A stretch of DNA of 5,925 nucleotides. Source: Streptosporangiaceae bacterium (lineage in GTDB: Bacteria > Actinomycetota > Actinomycetes > Streptosporangiales > Streptosporangiaceae). The notes below the pieces were generated by a model, which was not told the origin of the DNA, made no database searches, and saw only the letters and a program-made list of their open reading frames with translations. The first letter of the stretch is position 1; each line of letters begins with the position of its first letter. A program made the translations under genes and the position numbers. The stretch covers positions 1 to 5,925 of the forward strand of contig JASHOI010000476.1 in the NCBI GenBank assembly GCA_030041195.1. The letters run 5' to 3'. This document shows positions 2 through 5,461 of this stretch, one piece after another.

Positions 2-2050
2 GCCAATCATGTCGGCATCGTTTGGCTGATACTCAGCAAGTGCGACGGTAACAGGTCTGCTGATGCTATCGCATCCGCGACCCGGAAGGAGTTGCGAGAC
101 CCCCAAATTGGCCTTGTCTCGCCCATAATGGAGAATCTCATCCGCATCGGCGTGCTCATTGACATCCAAGAAGCTTGGAGGCCGTTTCATCGGCTAACTT
201 GCCAGCCAAGATCATATGGCAGCGAGTTGCCAGCTTCTGACGAGAATGACCTTGCTTCAGAGTCGATCTCCCGTCGTTTGGGCCCAGCCATGGGAAGTGC
301 ACGCACTTTCACGTCTGGGGAGGTTGATCCAGTGGATCTCCACGCCGTGCTAAAAGCGGCAGCTACGTGGCAGCTACCGGCTGGTGCGGATACCGTAGCT
401 ACTTGCCCGGCACCAATTCAGATATGTCTTATTCACAGGAGCCATCAGGCAGACCTAAGCCGTGGTTACTATCACTATGATTCTGTTCGCGGGCTGCTGA
501 CTCATACCGGCGATGTCGACGATCAGCAGCTGCGCTACGCGTTTAATAGTGACTCATTGCTTGGAGGCGCGCCAGCAATATTGGTGATAGCTATCCATTT
601 GCATCGGCGAGTCGGCGCAGATATGAACCGGAAGTACAGAACGGCGGTGATCGAGGTCGGCCGTGCCATTCAAAGGGTCATTTCGGCAGCGGCATCTCAA
701 GGTCTGACTGCGCTCGAACGCACTGAGTTCATGGATGCGGTTCTTGCCGAGGAACTGGGCATGGACGCGGTTCAGGCCGACATTGAGGTGTTGCCGGCAG
801 CTGCCGTTGCAATTGGTCACCCAGCCAAGAGTGAGGAGATCAGCACCGGGGAGCAGATGACGATGCTGCGGCGCGTCCTCGTGGGGAAGGCCAGGCCAGT
901 CCAAAAGGCGTGGGTAGCTCTCGGCTTGCGGCCGGACGAAGAGCCTTTCGCGTTCTTCAGCGCCTATGCCCGCGCTCACTCGCCTAGCACGGTTGGGCGG
1001 AATATCATCGCCAGCGGAACAGGCTCGTCATCTGATGAGGCGCTACTTAAAGCCATCGCTGAGGCGTACGAGCGATTTGTGGCGAGTCTGCTCCGAGTAG
1101 AGCGTTCAGCCACGGCCGCAAGCTTCACCAAAGAAGGCATTAGTTGGCTCGATCCGCGAGATATAGCGCCGCTCACTCAAGAACAATACGCATTCCGGCC
1201 AGACCTGCAGCAATTCGACGCTCGACGTGCCTGGCAATGGGTGGATGGAAGGAAGATCGCAGAAGGCTCGTCGATATGGATACCAGTCGATCTGGTTTTT
1301 AAAGACTTGACCTTTCGTCAGCTAGGCCGACGAGTTTGTGCACCCGCTACGTCTTCTGGCGTGGCAGCAGCCTTCTCGGAGGAAAAAGCAACGGAGCGCG
1401 CCTTGCTTGAGCTCGTTGAGCGGCACGCGCTGATGAGGTCGTGGTTCGAGCAAAGTGCGCCAAAGCGGATTGCACCCTCTGCTCTCACGTTCCATTGCCA
1501 ACGACGGATCAACTTTTGGCAGGAACATCACCGAAGCATTTACGTGCTTGACATGAGTACGTTCGGCGTTGCCGTGGCTGTTGCTATTATGCTGTCGGAC
1601 GAGTATCCTTGTCTCTTGGCGGGCGCTGCGGCGTCTATCACTGGCTTTGACGACGCAGCCGTCAAGGCCTTTCGCGATGTGGAACTTCACCTGGCTCAAT
1701 GGACGATGCGACGCAAGATGCATCCGATCGACCCGGAGAATGTCAGGAATAGCCTCGACCATGCACGCCTATATTTCTGGCCAGACTATCTTGGTCAGGT
1801 GGCGTGGTTGTGGAGCGGGGACGAGGTGCATACGACCCCCGTGCCTTCCGCAAGTGCTGAGGAGCTATATGAGAAACTGGATGCTATTGTTATCAATCTC
1901 TCACCGCAAGATTCATTTCTCAAGGTTGTGCGAGTTCTCAGCCCTTGCCTCGTACCGTTAACATTCGGCTTCGGATTGACACATTATACGCATCCGGCGA
2001 TTAATCGCGTATCTCCCGCCAACGTCCGGATGCCTCACTACTTCGCATGA
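2..2050 (+). CDS. Fused SagB-type dehydrogenase / YcaO cyclodehydratase (TOMM RiPP enzyme), 5' end outside window
   Basis: The frame is open from base 2, so the gene begins left of the window; the in-frame TTG at 92 is only an internal codon. Numbering from that TTG, with 30 visible residues before it: the segment from about -28 to 33 (KCDGNRSADAIA, LIRIGVLIDIQEAW) resembles the small winged-helix N-terminal region of TOMM enzymes. Residues about 55-242 match SagB/nitroreductase-fold dehydrogenases (YYHYD at 126-130; KYRTAVIEVGRAIQ at 181-194; GL at 204). Residues about 285-652 are YcaO, with the ATP/Mg-binding signatures GTGSSSDEALLKAIAEAYER (309-328), TSSG...ERALLELVERHA (420-446) and ELHLAQ (531-536). 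YcaO domains use ATP to cyclise Cys/Ser/Thr of a precursor peptide to azolines, and SagB-type partners oxidise these with FMN to azoles. The product is inferred to be a thiazole/oxazole-modified peptide. No precursor gene or E1-like partner is visible. Family assignment is firm; the product is unknown. Confidence 0.88.
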   Translation, partial: ANHVGIVWLILSKCDGNRSADAIASATRKELRDPQIGLVSPIMENLIRIGVLIDIQEAWRPFHRLTCQPRSYGSELPASDENDLASESISRRLGPAMGSARTFTSGEVDPVDLHAVLKAAATWQLPAGADTVATCPAPIQICLIHRSHQADLSRGYYHYDSVRGLLTHTGDVDDQQLRYAFNSDSLLGGAPAILVIAIHLHRRVGADMNRKYRTAVIEVGRAIQRVISAAASQGLTALERTEFMDAVLAEELGMDAVQADIEVLPAAAVAIGHPAKSEEISTGEQMTMLRRVLVGKARPVQKAWVALGLRPDEEPFAFFSAYARAHSPSTVGRNIIASGTGSSSDEALLKAIAEAYERFVASLLRVERSATAASFTKEGISWLDPRDIAPLTQEQYAFRPDLQQFDARRAWQWVDGRKIAEGSSIWIPVDLVFKDLTFRQLGRRVCAPATSSGVAAAFSEEKATERALLELVERHALMRSWFEQSAPKRIAPSALTFHCQRRINFWQEHHRSIYVLDMSTFGVAVAVAIMLSDEYPCLLAGAAASITGFDDAAVKAFRDVELHLAQWTMRRKMHPIDPENVRNSLDHARLYFWPDYLGQVAWLWSGDEVHTTPVPSASAEELYEKLDAIVINLSPQDSFLKVVRVLSPCLVPLTFGFGLTHYTHPAINRVSPANVRMPHYFA

Positions 2051-2056
2051 GCAGGC

Positions 2057-2307
2057 CGAGTAGCTCCACGGCACAAGGCTCCCAAGCAGGGGGGTGCGGA
2101 AGTTCGGCACAGGGGACAGACCCCCGCCGACCGCGCGGAACTCCGCGAACGTACCCAGGTCGAGCACGCTCTAGCCCACATCGGGCACTGGCAAGGCCGC
2201 CGCGCCCGCTACCGCGGCGCCAGCAAGAACCTATTCGACCTGCGTCGCGTCGCCGTAACCTGCACGTCATCGCCGACCTGGAACCAGCTCGTCAGCAGGT
2301 CGCTTGA
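2057..2307 (+). pseudogene. IS transposase, 3' remnant with frameshift
   Basis: Reading in the frame of the upstream YcaO gene after its stop gives TPADRAELRERTQVEHALAH, then IGHWQGRRARYRGASKNLFD and LRRVAV. This resembles the C-terminus of DDE transposases of the IS4/IS5 type, which commonly carry VEHALA..GHWQGRRARYRG..KNLFDLRR followed by (V)HNLHVIA. After GTC GCC GT at 2249-2256 the expected continuation NLHVIADLEPARQQVA and its TGA (2305-2307) appears in another frame, so a deletion of a non-multiple of three bases lies at about 2256. Only the last ~80 codons remain. The catalytic core and the left IS end are missing, and the left limit is approximate. It cannot make an active transposase. 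The exact IS family is not certain. Confidence 0.8.
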
Positions 2308-2350
2308 GGCATCATTCGACCGGCGTTCCACCCGCGAGTAGGCCGACGGG

Positions 2351-3112: not shown

Positions 3113-3376
3113 CTACTCAGGTCGGGGGCCCACATAGGTTCCTCGATGGGGCACGGTGAAGACCAGTCCTTCATGACGCAGCAGCGCGATCGCCGCCCGC
3201 ACCGTGCCCCGGCCGACGCCGTACGTCTGAACCAGTGCCTTCTCGCTCGGCAGCACGTCGAGATGCCCGAACTCGCTGCTCTGGATCTGCTTACGCAGGA
3301 TGTCTGCGATCTGGCGGTAGACGGGCACGTGTGAGTATGGATTGATCACGTTGGCAGCGTCCCCCGCAACGCTCAC
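3113..3376 (-). CDS. Small GntR-family transcriptional regulator (DNA-binding domain only)
   Basis: 87 residues. They form a GntR winged helix-turn-helix: VYRQIADILRKQI at 19-31, LPSEKALVQTYGVGRGTVRA at 42-61, and the wing LRHEGLVFTVPHRGTYV at 66-82. GntR proteins normally add a ligand-binding domain of 150 residues or more; this one ends at the wing, like many short actinomycete GntR proteins, some of which sit in integrative elements. The GTG start at 3374-3376 overlaps the TGA of the upstream tetR gene as GTGA, which argues for translational coupling and supports this start. A second GTG at 3347-3349, preceded by GGGGGA, is possible. It probably binds DNA as a dimer; its target and any inducer are unknown. 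No effector pocket is present. Confidence 0.88.
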   Translation of the reverse strand: MSVAGDAANVINPYSHVPVYRQIADILRKQIQSSEFGHLDVLPSEKALVQTYGVGRGTVRAAIALLRHEGLVFTVPHRGTYVGPRPE

Positions 3377-4005
3377 GTACCCAGTGATCGCTCGGCTTCG
3401 CGTAGCAGTGTTTCACCGGTTTGCCGCAGCTGGTGTGCTGGGCCGTCCTTGCCGAGGGCTTGGCTGTTGGCGAAGGCACCATCAATCACCAGGGTCAGCT
3501 GATCGGCTAGGAGGTCCGGGTCGGCAAGCCCGGCGGCTTGGGCGAGGGCCTTGATGCGGTTGCGTAGTTCGGCTTTGTGTTCTCGGCACACAGTGCGCGA
3601 CTGATGGTCTGGGCTGGGAAATTCGGCTGCGGCGTTGAGGAATGGGCAGCCGCGGAACCGGGGGGTGGTGATGTAGCGGCCGATCCAGTTCAGCTGGGCA
3701 CGCAGTTCGGCCAGGGGCTCGCTGGCGCTGGCCGCTGTCCGGTCCCACTGTGCCCAGAATTGCTGGTCCTCGGCCCGGAGGAATGCTACAACGAGGTCGT
3801 CTTTGGATCGGAACAGCCGGTAAAGGCTGCTTTTCGCGACCCCTGATCGCTCCACGATCGTGTCGACGCCGATGGCCCGTATGCCCTCGGCGTAGAACAA
3901 CTCCCGGGCCGTCGCCAGGATCCTGCCGCGGGCGCCCCTTTCTCTTCCTGTGGGGGCGCCTGCGCCCGCCTGTTCCAGATCGGGTCTTCCGCTCATGGTT
4001 GACAT
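3373..4005 (-). CDS. TetR/AcrR-family transcriptional regulator
   Basis: 210 residues, a normal length for TetR. The N-terminal DNA-binding domain spans about 24-76: RGRILATARELFYAEGIRAI is followed by the helix-turn-helix VDTIVERSGVAKSSLYRLF at 47-65 and the usual FRSKDDL. The C-terminal effector domain carries FRGCPFLNAAAEFP at 117-130, a signature of the YxaF/LmrA-like TetR subgroup. The start is ATG 4003-4005; a second ATG three codons in (3994-3996) is equally possible, and a 20-bp palindrome abuts the first ATG. It is divergent from the SnoaL-like/oxidoreductase pair and overlaps gntR by 4 nt at its end. Such proteins are mostly local repressors that release DNA on binding a small hydrophobic ligand; here it is inferred to control both directions. 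Confidence 0.93.
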   Translation of the reverse strand: MSTMSGRPDLEQAGAGAPTGRERGARGRILATARELFYAEGIRAIGVDTIVERSGVAKSSLYRLFRSKDDLVVAFLRAEDQQFWAQWDRTAASASEPLAELRAQLNWIGRYITTPRFRGCPFLNAAAEFPSPDHQSRTVCREHKAELRNRIKALAQAAGLADPDLLADQLTLVIDGAFANSQALGKDGPAHQLRQTGETLLREAERSLGT

Positions 4006-4025
4006 AGTACCGACCTGTCCGTACT
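4006..4025. promoter_or_regulatory. Probable TetR operator, copy 1
   Basis: AGTACCGACCTGTCCGTACT is an imperfect palindrome with 16 of 20 symmetric positions, of the form AGTACnGACnnGTCnGTACT. Size and symmetry fit a TetR dimer site. It directly abuts the first possible ATG of tetR, so binding should block that gene's own expression. Confidence 0.72.
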
Positions 4026-4032
4026 CTCCGAT

Positions 4033-4052
4033 GGAACAGACCTGTCCGTACT
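4033..4052. promoter_or_regulatory. Probable TetR operator, copy 2
   Basis: The 14 bp GACCTGTCCGTACT at 4039-4052 repeats 4012-4025 exactly, 27 bp away. The core GAC-CT-GTC and the right arm are intact; the left arm (GGAAC) is degenerate, so it may be a weaker site. It lies upstream of the SnoaL-like gene and overlaps its candidate -10. Confidence 0.62.
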
Positions 4053-4054
4053 AT
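4049..4054 (+). promoter_or_regulatory. Candidate -10 of the rightward promoter
   Basis: TACTAT resembles the vegetative -10 hexamer and lies 22 bp before the GTG at 4077, within operator copy 2. The region 17-18 bp upstream (CTCCGA) is a poor -35. The overlap with the operator is what would be expected for repression, but the promoter call itself is weak. Confidence 0.35.
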
Positions 4055-4064
4055 TTCGCGCGAT

Positions 4065-4072
4065 GGGAGGAG
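4065..4072 (+). promoter_or_regulatory. Ribosome binding site of the SnoaL-like gene
   Basis: GGGAGGAG ends 4 nt before the GTG at 4077, a strong Shine-Dalgarno match at workable spacing. It decides this GTG as the start. Confidence 0.8.
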
Positions 4073-4076
4073 CACC

Positions 4077-4442
4077 GTGACCGACGTAACAGCCGCGCTT
4101 CAGGGGATCGCAGAACGGTATGCCGGGGCCTGGAACAGTCACGATCTGGCCGCGATCATGGAACTGCATACCGCTGACACCCGCTACCAGCTGCACGGTC
4201 GTACCACCCCAATGACCGGCAAGGAAGCTGTCTCGGTGGCGTTCGCCGCCGACCTGGACGCGATGCCGGACATCCACTTCGACCTGGTGACCATGCACGT
4301 CGGCGCGGAGCATGTCGTCTTCCAGTCCCAAATTACCGGCACCCGGGACGGCCGGGCGTTCCGCATCGACGCGATGGACTTGCTCACCGTCCGCGATGGT
4401 CTTGTGCACACTAAGGACACCTACCTGGGTATGCCGCAGTGA
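4077..4442 (+). CDS. SnoaL-like / NTF2-fold small protein
   Basis: 121 residues with the layout of the SnoaL/NTF2-like superfamily: an N-terminal helix with IAERYAGAWNSHDLAAIMEL (11-30), the turn MTGKEAVSVAFA (46-57), and beta strands ending in FRIDAMDLLTVRDGLVHTKD (95-114). The fold is a cone with a hydrophobic pocket. Members include polyketide cyclases, isomerases, hydratases and pure binding proteins, so the reaction cannot be read from the fold alone. No signal peptide or membrane segment; cytoplasmic. GTG start with a strong ribosome binding site. Its TGA overlaps the GTG of the next gene (GTGA, 4439-4442), so the two are probably translated together and act in one step or pathway. Likely repressed by the divergent TetR. 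Confidence 0.85.
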   Translation: MTDVTAALQGIAERYAGAWNSHDLAAIMELHTADTRYQLHGRTTPMTGKEAVSVAFAADLDAMPDIHFDLVTMHVGAEHVVFQSQITGTRDGRAFRIDAMDLLTVRDGLVHTKDTYLGMPQ

Positions 4443-5461
4443 CCGGGCGCGTTCTGGTCTACGGCGCGTACGGCCATACCGGGCGCTTCGCTGTCGCTGA
4501 ACTGCTTCGGCGCGGGTGGCCGGTGACTGCGGCAGGCCGGGACACGCAGGCGCTGCTGAGCGTGACCGGCAGCGGGGTCACGACCCTGCCGGTCACGATT
4601 GACCAGCATGGCATCCTCACTGACCTCGCCCGGGACAGTGTGGCCGTCTTGAACTGCGCAGGACCATTCAGCAAGACAGCAGCCCCGCTGGTCAGCGCAG
4701 CTATCGCGGCCGCAGTGCCCTACCTCGACGTCTGCGCGGAACCCGAGGTGGTCGCTCAGGTCTTCGAGCGCTTTGCGGTGCCTGCCCGGGAACGCGACGT
4801 CGCGGTGATGCCTGCCGCAGCGTTCTTCGGTGCGCTGGGGGACGTCCTCGGCACCGCAGCGCTCGGCGTGTGGGACAACGCCGACTCAATCAGCATCGCC
4901 TACGCCCTGGACGAGTGGAAGCCGACCGCCGGCACCCGCCGGGTCATCCAGGAAATGGACGGCCGTCGGAGGGTGTACCGGGACGGAAAGCCGGCCATGG
5001 TGAGCACGCCTTTTCCGCAGCAGGCCTGGGACTTTCCCGCGCCGGTTGGTCGGCGGACAGTTATCGGCGAGTACCCGGCCCCTGAAACGGTCTTGCTGCC
5101 GCATCACGTCAGCACCACGGCCGTCAGCACCTACCTGACTGTCGAGGCAATCCAGGACCTTCGAGATCCCGCGGCTGGCGGCCCGGTGCCCGTGGACCAC
5201 GATGGCCGCTCGGCCCAGACCTTCCTGGTCCACGCCCAGGCCATGCGAGGAAGCCAGCAACGCCGCCTATGGGCGCACGGACGTGATATTTACGCCACAT
5301 CCGCGGTGATTGCTGTCTCATTGCTGGAACGATTGCTCAACGGGCCCCAGCGGTCCGGCGTCCTGACTCCAGCCCAGGCATTCGGCTCGCCGACCTCACT
5401 GAGCGACCTGACCGGACTCGGAGCCCTCGTGGGCGGCGGGGATACCGGTGCCGGGGATTGA
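4439..5461 (+). CDS. Saccharopine dehydrogenase-like NAD(P)-dependent oxidoreductase
   Basis: 340 residues. The N-terminus is a Rossmann nucleotide-binding fold with the glycine loop VLVYGAYGHTGRF (5-17), a second-strand end AAGRD (31-35), and the later strand AVLNCAGPF (69-77), typical of the saccharopine dehydrogenase NADP-binding family. YLDVCAE (95-101) and the region VAVMPAAAFFGALGDVLG (121-138) also fit this family. The C-terminal half is the family's mixed domain and keeps GRDIYATSAVIAVSLLERLL (281-300). Many relatives are not lysine-pathway enzymes but unassigned reductases or trans-acting enoyl reductase-like proteins, so true saccharopine dehydrogenase activity should not be assumed. 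The GTG start lies within the 4-nt overlap with the SnoaL-like gene, and no separate promoter is seen. Cytoplasmic. Confidence 0.88.
   Translation: MTGRVLVYGAYGHTGRFAVAELLRRGWPVTAAGRDTQALLSVTGSGVTTLPVTIDQHGILTDLARDSVAVLNCAGPFSKTAAPLVSAAIAAAVPYLDVCAEPEVVAQVFERFAVPARERDVAVMPAAAFFGALGDVLGTAALGVWDNADSISIAYALDEWKPTAGTRRVIQEMDGRRRVYRDGKPAMVSTPFPQQAWDFPAPVGRRTVIGEYPAPETVLLPHHVSTTAVSTYLTVEAIQDLRDPAAGGPVPVDHDGRSAQTFLVHAQAMRGSQQRRLWAHGRDIYATSAVIAVSLLERLLNGPQRSGVLTPAQAFGSPTSLSDLTGLGALVGGGDTGAGD

Follow-up and report, generated by a model that had tools for sequence, protein, structure and literature searches.

Gene and domain organisation

The stretch of DNA analysed here (the window) comprises 5,925 nucleotides from a Streptosporangiaceae bacterium, and its left end carries one open reading frame (ORF), 2..2050(+), which encodes 682 residues and is open at the window edge. 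The product is a single chain composed of a winged helix resembling PqqD and the recognition element (RRE) of ribosomally synthesised and post-translationally modified peptide (RiPP) pathways, a domain of the SagB/nitroreductase fold and a YcaO domain. The complete form is the 715 aa database protein P0001, and the window ORF is identical to its residues 34-715, in agreement with a preliminary description of this DNA, made from the letters alone, which had the gene cut by the window edge with at least 682 residues visible. Residue numbers are those of P0001 unless given as ORF residues. The gene has the following features:

2..2050 (+): fused RRE-(pseudo)SagB-YcaO protein, P0001 residues 34-715 of 715 plus stop; codons 1-33 precede the window
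2..199 (+): helical part of the RRE/PqqD-like winged helix, residues 34-99 (AlphaFold2, HHalign); the N-terminal strands fall before the first base of the window
200..298 (+): low-confidence linker, residues 100-132 (predicted local distance difference test, pLDDT, <50)
287..310 (+): broken R-x-S-x-R-x-F site, residues 129-136, AMGSARTF, first Arg gone and second kept in P0001 (alignment)
299..838 (+): SagB/nitroreductase-fold domain, residues 133-312, predicted to be catalytically dead
389..421 (+): lost PSAGG-LYP site, residues 163-173, now DTVATCPAPIQ (alignment)
617..622 (+): lost Lys-Tyr site, residues 239-240, now Ala-Asp, aligned with K201-Y202 of McbC
722..730 (+): lost Gly-Gly-Phe site, residues 274-276, now TEF (alignment)
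839..2047 (+): YcaO domain, residues 313-715
1061..1075 (+): YcaO EAYER, with E387, E390 and R391 (alignment)
1409..1423 (+): YcaO ELVER, with E503, E506 and R507 (alignment)
2033..2047 (+): C-terminal tail PHYFA, where a discrete YcaO has PHPFP (PxPxP)

The middle and C-terminal parts are both recognised by Pfam. YcaO (PF02624) matches ORF residues 338-649 with 116.3 bits (cut-off 25.7), which makes the protein a member of the YcaO superfamily, and Nitroreductase (PF00881) matches ORF residues 99-272 with 41.5 bits (cut-off 23.5); with a sequence match above the cut-off and the fold itself present, the middle part is a nitroreductase-fold domain. The AlphaFold2 model, built from 21 family sequences, has a mean pLDDT of 85.4 and a predicted template modelling score (pTM) of 0.82. 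The preliminary description had proposed one chain with winged-helix-like, SagB-like and YcaO parts, and Pfam, the model and the profile comparison with PqqD given below bear this out. It had also placed the dehydrogenase at ORF residues 55-242; the nitroreductase similarity is there, but it begins further along the chain and ORF residues 67-99 form the low-confidence linker.

The N-terminus is modelled as strands at residues 8-10, 14-17, 20-23 and 31-33 followed by helices at 37-46, 53-62 and 72-81, an order that we take to be that of an RRE. When family residues 1-99 (the 57 rows of alignment A2, see below, of which the program used 56) were compared by HHalign with 20 PqqD (PF05402) sequences drawn from genomes, the probability was 95.0 across 64 columns. 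Among the controls, 100 column-shuffled alignments gave at most 6.6, the GntR protein of the window 8.8, and the window TetR protein and the family's nitroreductase part 0.3 each. On the model and this comparison the N-terminal part, with its predicted β-strands and three-helix winged fold, is an RRE of the PqqD-like kind. The PqqD Pfam model finds no match in the window ORF, the alignment to the N-terminus of LynD yields 5.8 bits and is by itself not significant, and the structures of LynD and BmdC align from model residues 3-7 onwards, such ranges giving end points only. That partner genes must be sought to the left, as stated earlier, is not a necessary conclusion, since the RRE-like domain is within the chain itself.

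A family of fused proteins

The same architecture recurs in at least 61 fused proteins, collected by two database searches and one contig scan. The search with the window protein returned 24 proteins, 23 of which have both Pfam domains, and the search with a relative from Rothia returned 38, all with both domains and 37 of them new; the fusion is therefore no assembly artefact. Each database search scored about 8000 candidates and the family count is a lower bound. Few of these proteins carry an organism name; the named sources include Rothia nasimurium, Dietzia maris, Rhodococcus sp., Varibaculum massiliense and metagenome-assembled genomes of a Saccharimonadales and a Nitrospira, and the JGI name of P0041 already spells out both halves, so that annotation pipelines do see the fusion. 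Alignment A2 holds 57 of the 61 fused proteins (P0011 and P0044-P0046 were excluded as short) and alignment A1 holds 21 of the 24 matches to the window protein. P0012, from the clade to which the window protein belongs, is a fragment with the YcaO part only, and P0025 and P0026, which lack the nitroreductase domain, are uncounted.

This window clade is defined by a maximum-likelihood tree of the YcaO domain only, in which its 10 rows fall on one side of a branch with a support of 100/100; the tree has several long rows and 19 open forks, and the remainder of its topology is uncertain.

Outside the protein database the fusion was encountered sparsely. A first contig scan found no relative, a second gave at least 17 loci at 23-37% identity with one fused among the matches listed, and viral contigs and phages had no match. 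In a sample of Actinomycetota, where mostly just two candidates were scored per genome, 62 of 396 genomes match A1 (E<=1e-20) and none of the places listed has both halves in one frame. Six of 398 Pseudomonadota genomes match at 1e-25, and among the places listed a one-frame fusion occurs only in Herbaspirillum, the centre genome of that sample, where both halves lie inside one 804-codon frame; genome G413 of the same sample has SagB and YcaO as neighbouring genes. P0037 had no match in 397 genomes of the order of genome G002, which carries no weight as absence. In 72,556 plasmid records, searches with P0001, P0037 and P0053 had a single match apiece over at least 80% of the query, always on the same Rothia plasmid.

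The SagB-fold domain of the window clade

Four separate motifs of the dehydrogenase are broken on one branch of the family. The Lys-Tyr (K-Y) pair is present in 47/47 other rows of A2 and in 0/10 rows of the window clade, which have neither residue at those places. In the A1 profile alignment the K-Y column falls on K201-Y202 of McbC, which we take to be catalytic residues, and P0001 has Ala239-Asp240 there. The other three motifs presumably hold flavin mononucleotide (FMN). S-[AG]-G at 165-167 is found in 0/10 clade rows and 47/47 others when counted in the motif's own columns (a looser reading gives 1/10 clade rows), Arg at both 130 and 134 in 0/10 against 45/47, and Gly-Gly at 274-275 in 0/10 against 39/47. 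The truncated proteins outside A2 agree, with P0011 of the window clade lacking K-Y and P0044-P0046 having it; P0012 does not cover the region. On the YcaO-only tree the K-Y state changes once, and the direction is read as loss and not gain because McbC and all fused rows outside the clade have the pair. As a control, standalone SagB-like matches were inspected at 33 loci from two phylum samples: K-Y is present in 27, the Tyr follows Arg or Gly in five, and one showed no such motif. The NCBIfam model for SagB/McbC, TIGR03605 (cut-off 78.4), scores P0001 at 30.9 bits and P0008 at 32.7, both below the family threshold, and the K-Y-bearing relatives P0014, P0037 and P0027 at 101, 75.7 and 71.2 bits. 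A displaced Lys-Tyr in P0001 was considered as a substitute pair and dropped, P0001 being the only clade row that has it.

The domain has also diverged unevenly. The median ratio of dehydrogenase to YcaO divergence is 1.49 in the window clade (45 pairs), compared with 1.01 in 122 Rothia-type pairs, 1.04 in 10 pairs, 0.91 in 3 pairs and 0.78-0.88 in three single pairs. Within the clade the dehydrogenase domain retains 61% mean identity with 51/180 positions invariant, and the YcaO domain 74% with 171/403. Judged from these alignments the dehydrogenase domain of the window clade is evolving under relaxed constraint, yet it is partly conserved. It seems to be a flavoenzyme domain without an active site. 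It could be argued that flavin-dependent dehydrogenation persists here through other residues, so that the protein makes azoles; this is distinctly unlikely, given that all four motifs are incomplete in 10/10 clade rows, that the displaced pair of P0001 is absent from the other nine, and that the median divergence of the domain relative to YcaO is 1.5 in this clade and about 1.0 in K-Y-bearing groups. The description of the gene as a dehydrogenase-YcaO fusion for azole synthesis is only partly supported: for the window clade an active dehydrogenase and azole formation are not.

The YcaO domain and the favoured reading

Both ExxER stretches of the YcaO domain, which presumably form its ATP/Mg site, are kept throughout the family, with E387, E390, R391, E503, E506 and R507 invariant in 57/57 rows of A2. 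No E1-type NCBIfam model matches P0001 at E<=0.01, and residues 133-312, the middle part that is E1-like in C-D fused cyclodehydratases, match nitroreductase. On the model for SagD-type cyclodehydratases, TIGR03604, P0001 scores 120.4 bits and remains below the cut-off of 219.25.

The interpretation favoured here, with somewhat better than even confidence, is that in the window clade the protein is a single-chain RiPP azoline synthetase in which an RRE and a YcaO cyclodehydratase are joined by a dead SagB-fold spacer. Several observations weigh against it. As to the YcaO domain, all five fused proteins tested are under the TIGR03604 cut-off, which a discrete Corynebacterium YcaO passes with 247.9 bits; SSG replaces SNG in 52/57 rows; and the PxPxP C-terminal end, a feature of SagD-type cyclodehydratases of thiazole/oxazole-modified microcin (TOMM) pathways, is found in 0/60 fused-family chains counted. 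Because the whole fused family departs from SagD-type cyclodehydratases in these three respects, azoline chemistry is not assured. As to the dehydrogenase, the second Arg of R-x-S-x-R persists by itself in 4/10 clade rows, and the Lys alone may be dispensable, to judge from the five standalone SagB-like matches with Arg or Gly in its place. The TIGR03605 score alone is no proof of a dead oxidase, since two of the three K-Y-bearing relatives tested also fall slightly short of that cut-off. The loss of FMN binding in the clade is a prediction from the motifs. Finally, the N-terminus of the window clade taken by itself matches PqqD with an HHalign probability of just 65.3, and none of the clade members, the window gene included, has a precursor, an exporter or another RiPP gene in view.

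Alternatively, the YcaO domain may perform another kind of backbone activation, giving a thioamide, an amidine or a macrocyclic amidine, in which case the oxidase would have become useless since no azoline is made. This is unlikely: the SagD-type score of P0001 far exceeds the 45.9 bits obtained with the thioamidation model, both being under their cut-offs, the altered YcaO features are common to K-Y-bearing relatives that should still oxidise azolines, and no TfuA-like match occurs among the four ORFs searched on the right side of the gene, the only side available.

The tail itself reads PHYFA, PHFIA or PHFFA-like in 52 of the 60 fused chains counted, against PHPFP in the discrete Corynebacterium YcaO.

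Relatives with informative neighbours

The Rothia relative is encoded on a 40-kb plasmid of Rothia nasimurium (NZ_CP056081.1) and has all four dehydrogenase motifs intact, with GGY in place of GGF. Upstream of it lie the following features:

L018:14374-14490 and 14540-14686 (same strand): two tandem small ORFs, Rothia plasmid

Both are absent from the incomplete PLSDB gene table of the plasmid. They share a leader, MF..E.LTTLSV.VR.D, whose alignment score was reached by 0/5000 shuffles, and have Cys/Ser/Thr-containing ends, SPNCTSCCDFTSPEN and GKCGNGGSSCNGGGGGGCHALPPK. A purine-rich stretch precedes each, and the second stops 314 bases upstream of the fused gene. Neither has a Pfam match, and tblastn with one of them returned only the query itself. 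The two small ORFs are a likely candidate precursor pair for the fused enzyme. No ABC (ATP-binding cassette) transporter is named in the PLSDB gene table, incomplete as it is. The plasmid may possibly hold a two-component azole peptide system made up of a fused enzyme with an intact oxidase and the small ORFs.

A divergent fused gene of Herbaspirillum sp. alder98 (L001:9440-11725), with both domains above their cut-offs and counted among the 61 fused proteins, stands among secretion genes (L001:2654-12704). The neighbourhood includes an HlyC-type acyltransferase (PF02794), and a 248-aa neighbour with a CDSGSC stretch ahead of a Hint-like start has no Pfam match. We take the other neighbours to be ABC transporter-like, HlyD-like, TolC-like and ATP-grasp-like, and the start just mentioned to be Hint-like. 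The locus perhaps directs an acylated, heterocyclised peptide that is exported through type I secretion.

DNA to the right of the gene

The GC content is 0.54-0.60 within the fused gene and 0.63-0.70 to its right, where Pfam identifies GntR, TetR, SnoaL-like and saccharopine-dehydrogenase-like ORFs. No RiPP-like gene is present among these four, the flanking genes covered here. In the plasmid-collection records these genes have distant matches only (Caballeronia, Rhizobium, Nonomuraea, Streptomyces and others). Translated, 2126-2338(+) seems to resemble what is left of the C-terminus of a broken DDE transposase, and Pfam returns nothing for it. The low GC content, this resemblance and the broken dehydrogenase motifs together raise the prospect that the window gene is what remains of an azole synthetase, decaying or silent, next to a mobile element. 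This is very unlikely. The 715-aa frame is intact, and the clade that shares these losses has a mean YcaO identity of 74% and glutamates that never vary, neither of which would survive decay.

This transposase-like stretch, next to the jump in GC content at the end of the fused gene, is possibly the right border of an acquired island. Further on, 3113-3376(-) encodes an 87-aa GntR DNA-binding domain without an effector domain, and at 3373-5461 a TetR gene is divergent from a SnoaL-like and saccharopine-dehydrogenase-like pair that overlap by four bases, which looks like an ordinary self-regulated small operon.

Comparison with known systems

In the microcin B17 synthetase McbB-McbC-McbD (6gos), McbC (SagB-fold) and McbD (YcaO) align with both enzyme domains of P0001 and McbB is the leader binder (PMC10634744); unlike the fused chain these are three separate proteins, and McbC keeps the K-Y pair. 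The fused cyclodehydratases LynD and TruD (4v1t, 4bs9), known as C-D fusions, are likewise single chains, about 780 aa long, that run from a leader-binding N-terminus to a C-terminal YcaO, but have an E1-like fold in the middle (PMC10634744) instead of a nitroreductase fold. LynD is the best structural match to the model; the whole-chain root-mean-square deviation of 15-16 means that the domains of the two proteins are placed differently. The azoline oxidases BmdC and ThcOx (7ly4, 5lq4; oxidases according to their structure titles) also have an N-terminal part followed by a SagB-fold, aligned with model residues 3-5 to 309-311, but are without a YcaO domain.

Among the uncharacterised TOMM groups mobilisin and haloazolisin (PMC4603692), the mobilisins come from Mobiluncus, Rhodococcus and other Actinobacteria, as do some of the fused relatives, and could be related to this family. 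By their description alone the two groups are set apart, their clusters having B, C and D proteins and a fused cyclodehydratase (PMC4603692). The available part of the same source lists C-D and protease-dehydrogenase fusions and has no dehydrogenase-YcaO fusion. PflD resembles the fused proteins in being a RiPP enzyme that carries a fused nitroreductase domain; its partner, however, is a multinuclear non-haem iron-dependent oxidative enzyme (MNIO) and the nitroreductase makes dehydrophenylalanine (PMC12636437). The RRE-Finder study mentions 14 RREs, perhaps vestigial, as fusions with dehydrogenases (PMC7470986), and the accessible text of PMC12710340 contains nothing on an RRE-SagB-YcaO architecture. 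A search of titles and abstract starts found no description of such a chain, in line with the earlier suggestion of an undescribed system; most subscription papers lay outside this search, which makes it weak evidence of absence.

Proposed mechanism and implications

Following the scheme of leader binding, cyclodehydration and oxidation of known TOMM systems (PMC10634744, PMC7136475), steps that are coordinated differently in micrococcin and microcin B17 (PMC10634744), it is proposed that the N-terminal RRE would capture the leader of an as yet unseen precursor peptide. The YcaO domain would then use ATP to activate the amide and close the ring, a cyclodehydration of core Cys, Ser or Thr residues. 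Where the K-Y pair is kept, the SagB domain is probably an active FMN azoline dehydrogenase and would go on to oxidise the azoline. In the window clade the oxidation step is probably gone and the chain may halt at the half-finished ring, with the SagB-fold domain retained as a structural, perhaps dimer-forming, spacer between the RRE and YcaO.

Azole-forming RiPP machines usually consist of several proteins, and a chain with all three parts lends itself to simple tests. In the window clade the oxidase alone is seemingly disabled, and a comparison with its many intact relatives would allow any structural role of SagB to be tested apart from oxidation. The Rothia arrangement suggests a system of a precursor plus one enzyme that could serve peptide engineering. 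Overall, there is about an even chance that these proteins form a family of RiPP synthetases complete in themselves but for a precursor gene, and that in one clade the flavoenzyme became a non-catalytic scaffold in a single step, by which azoles would have given way as product to azolines or a different YcaO modification.
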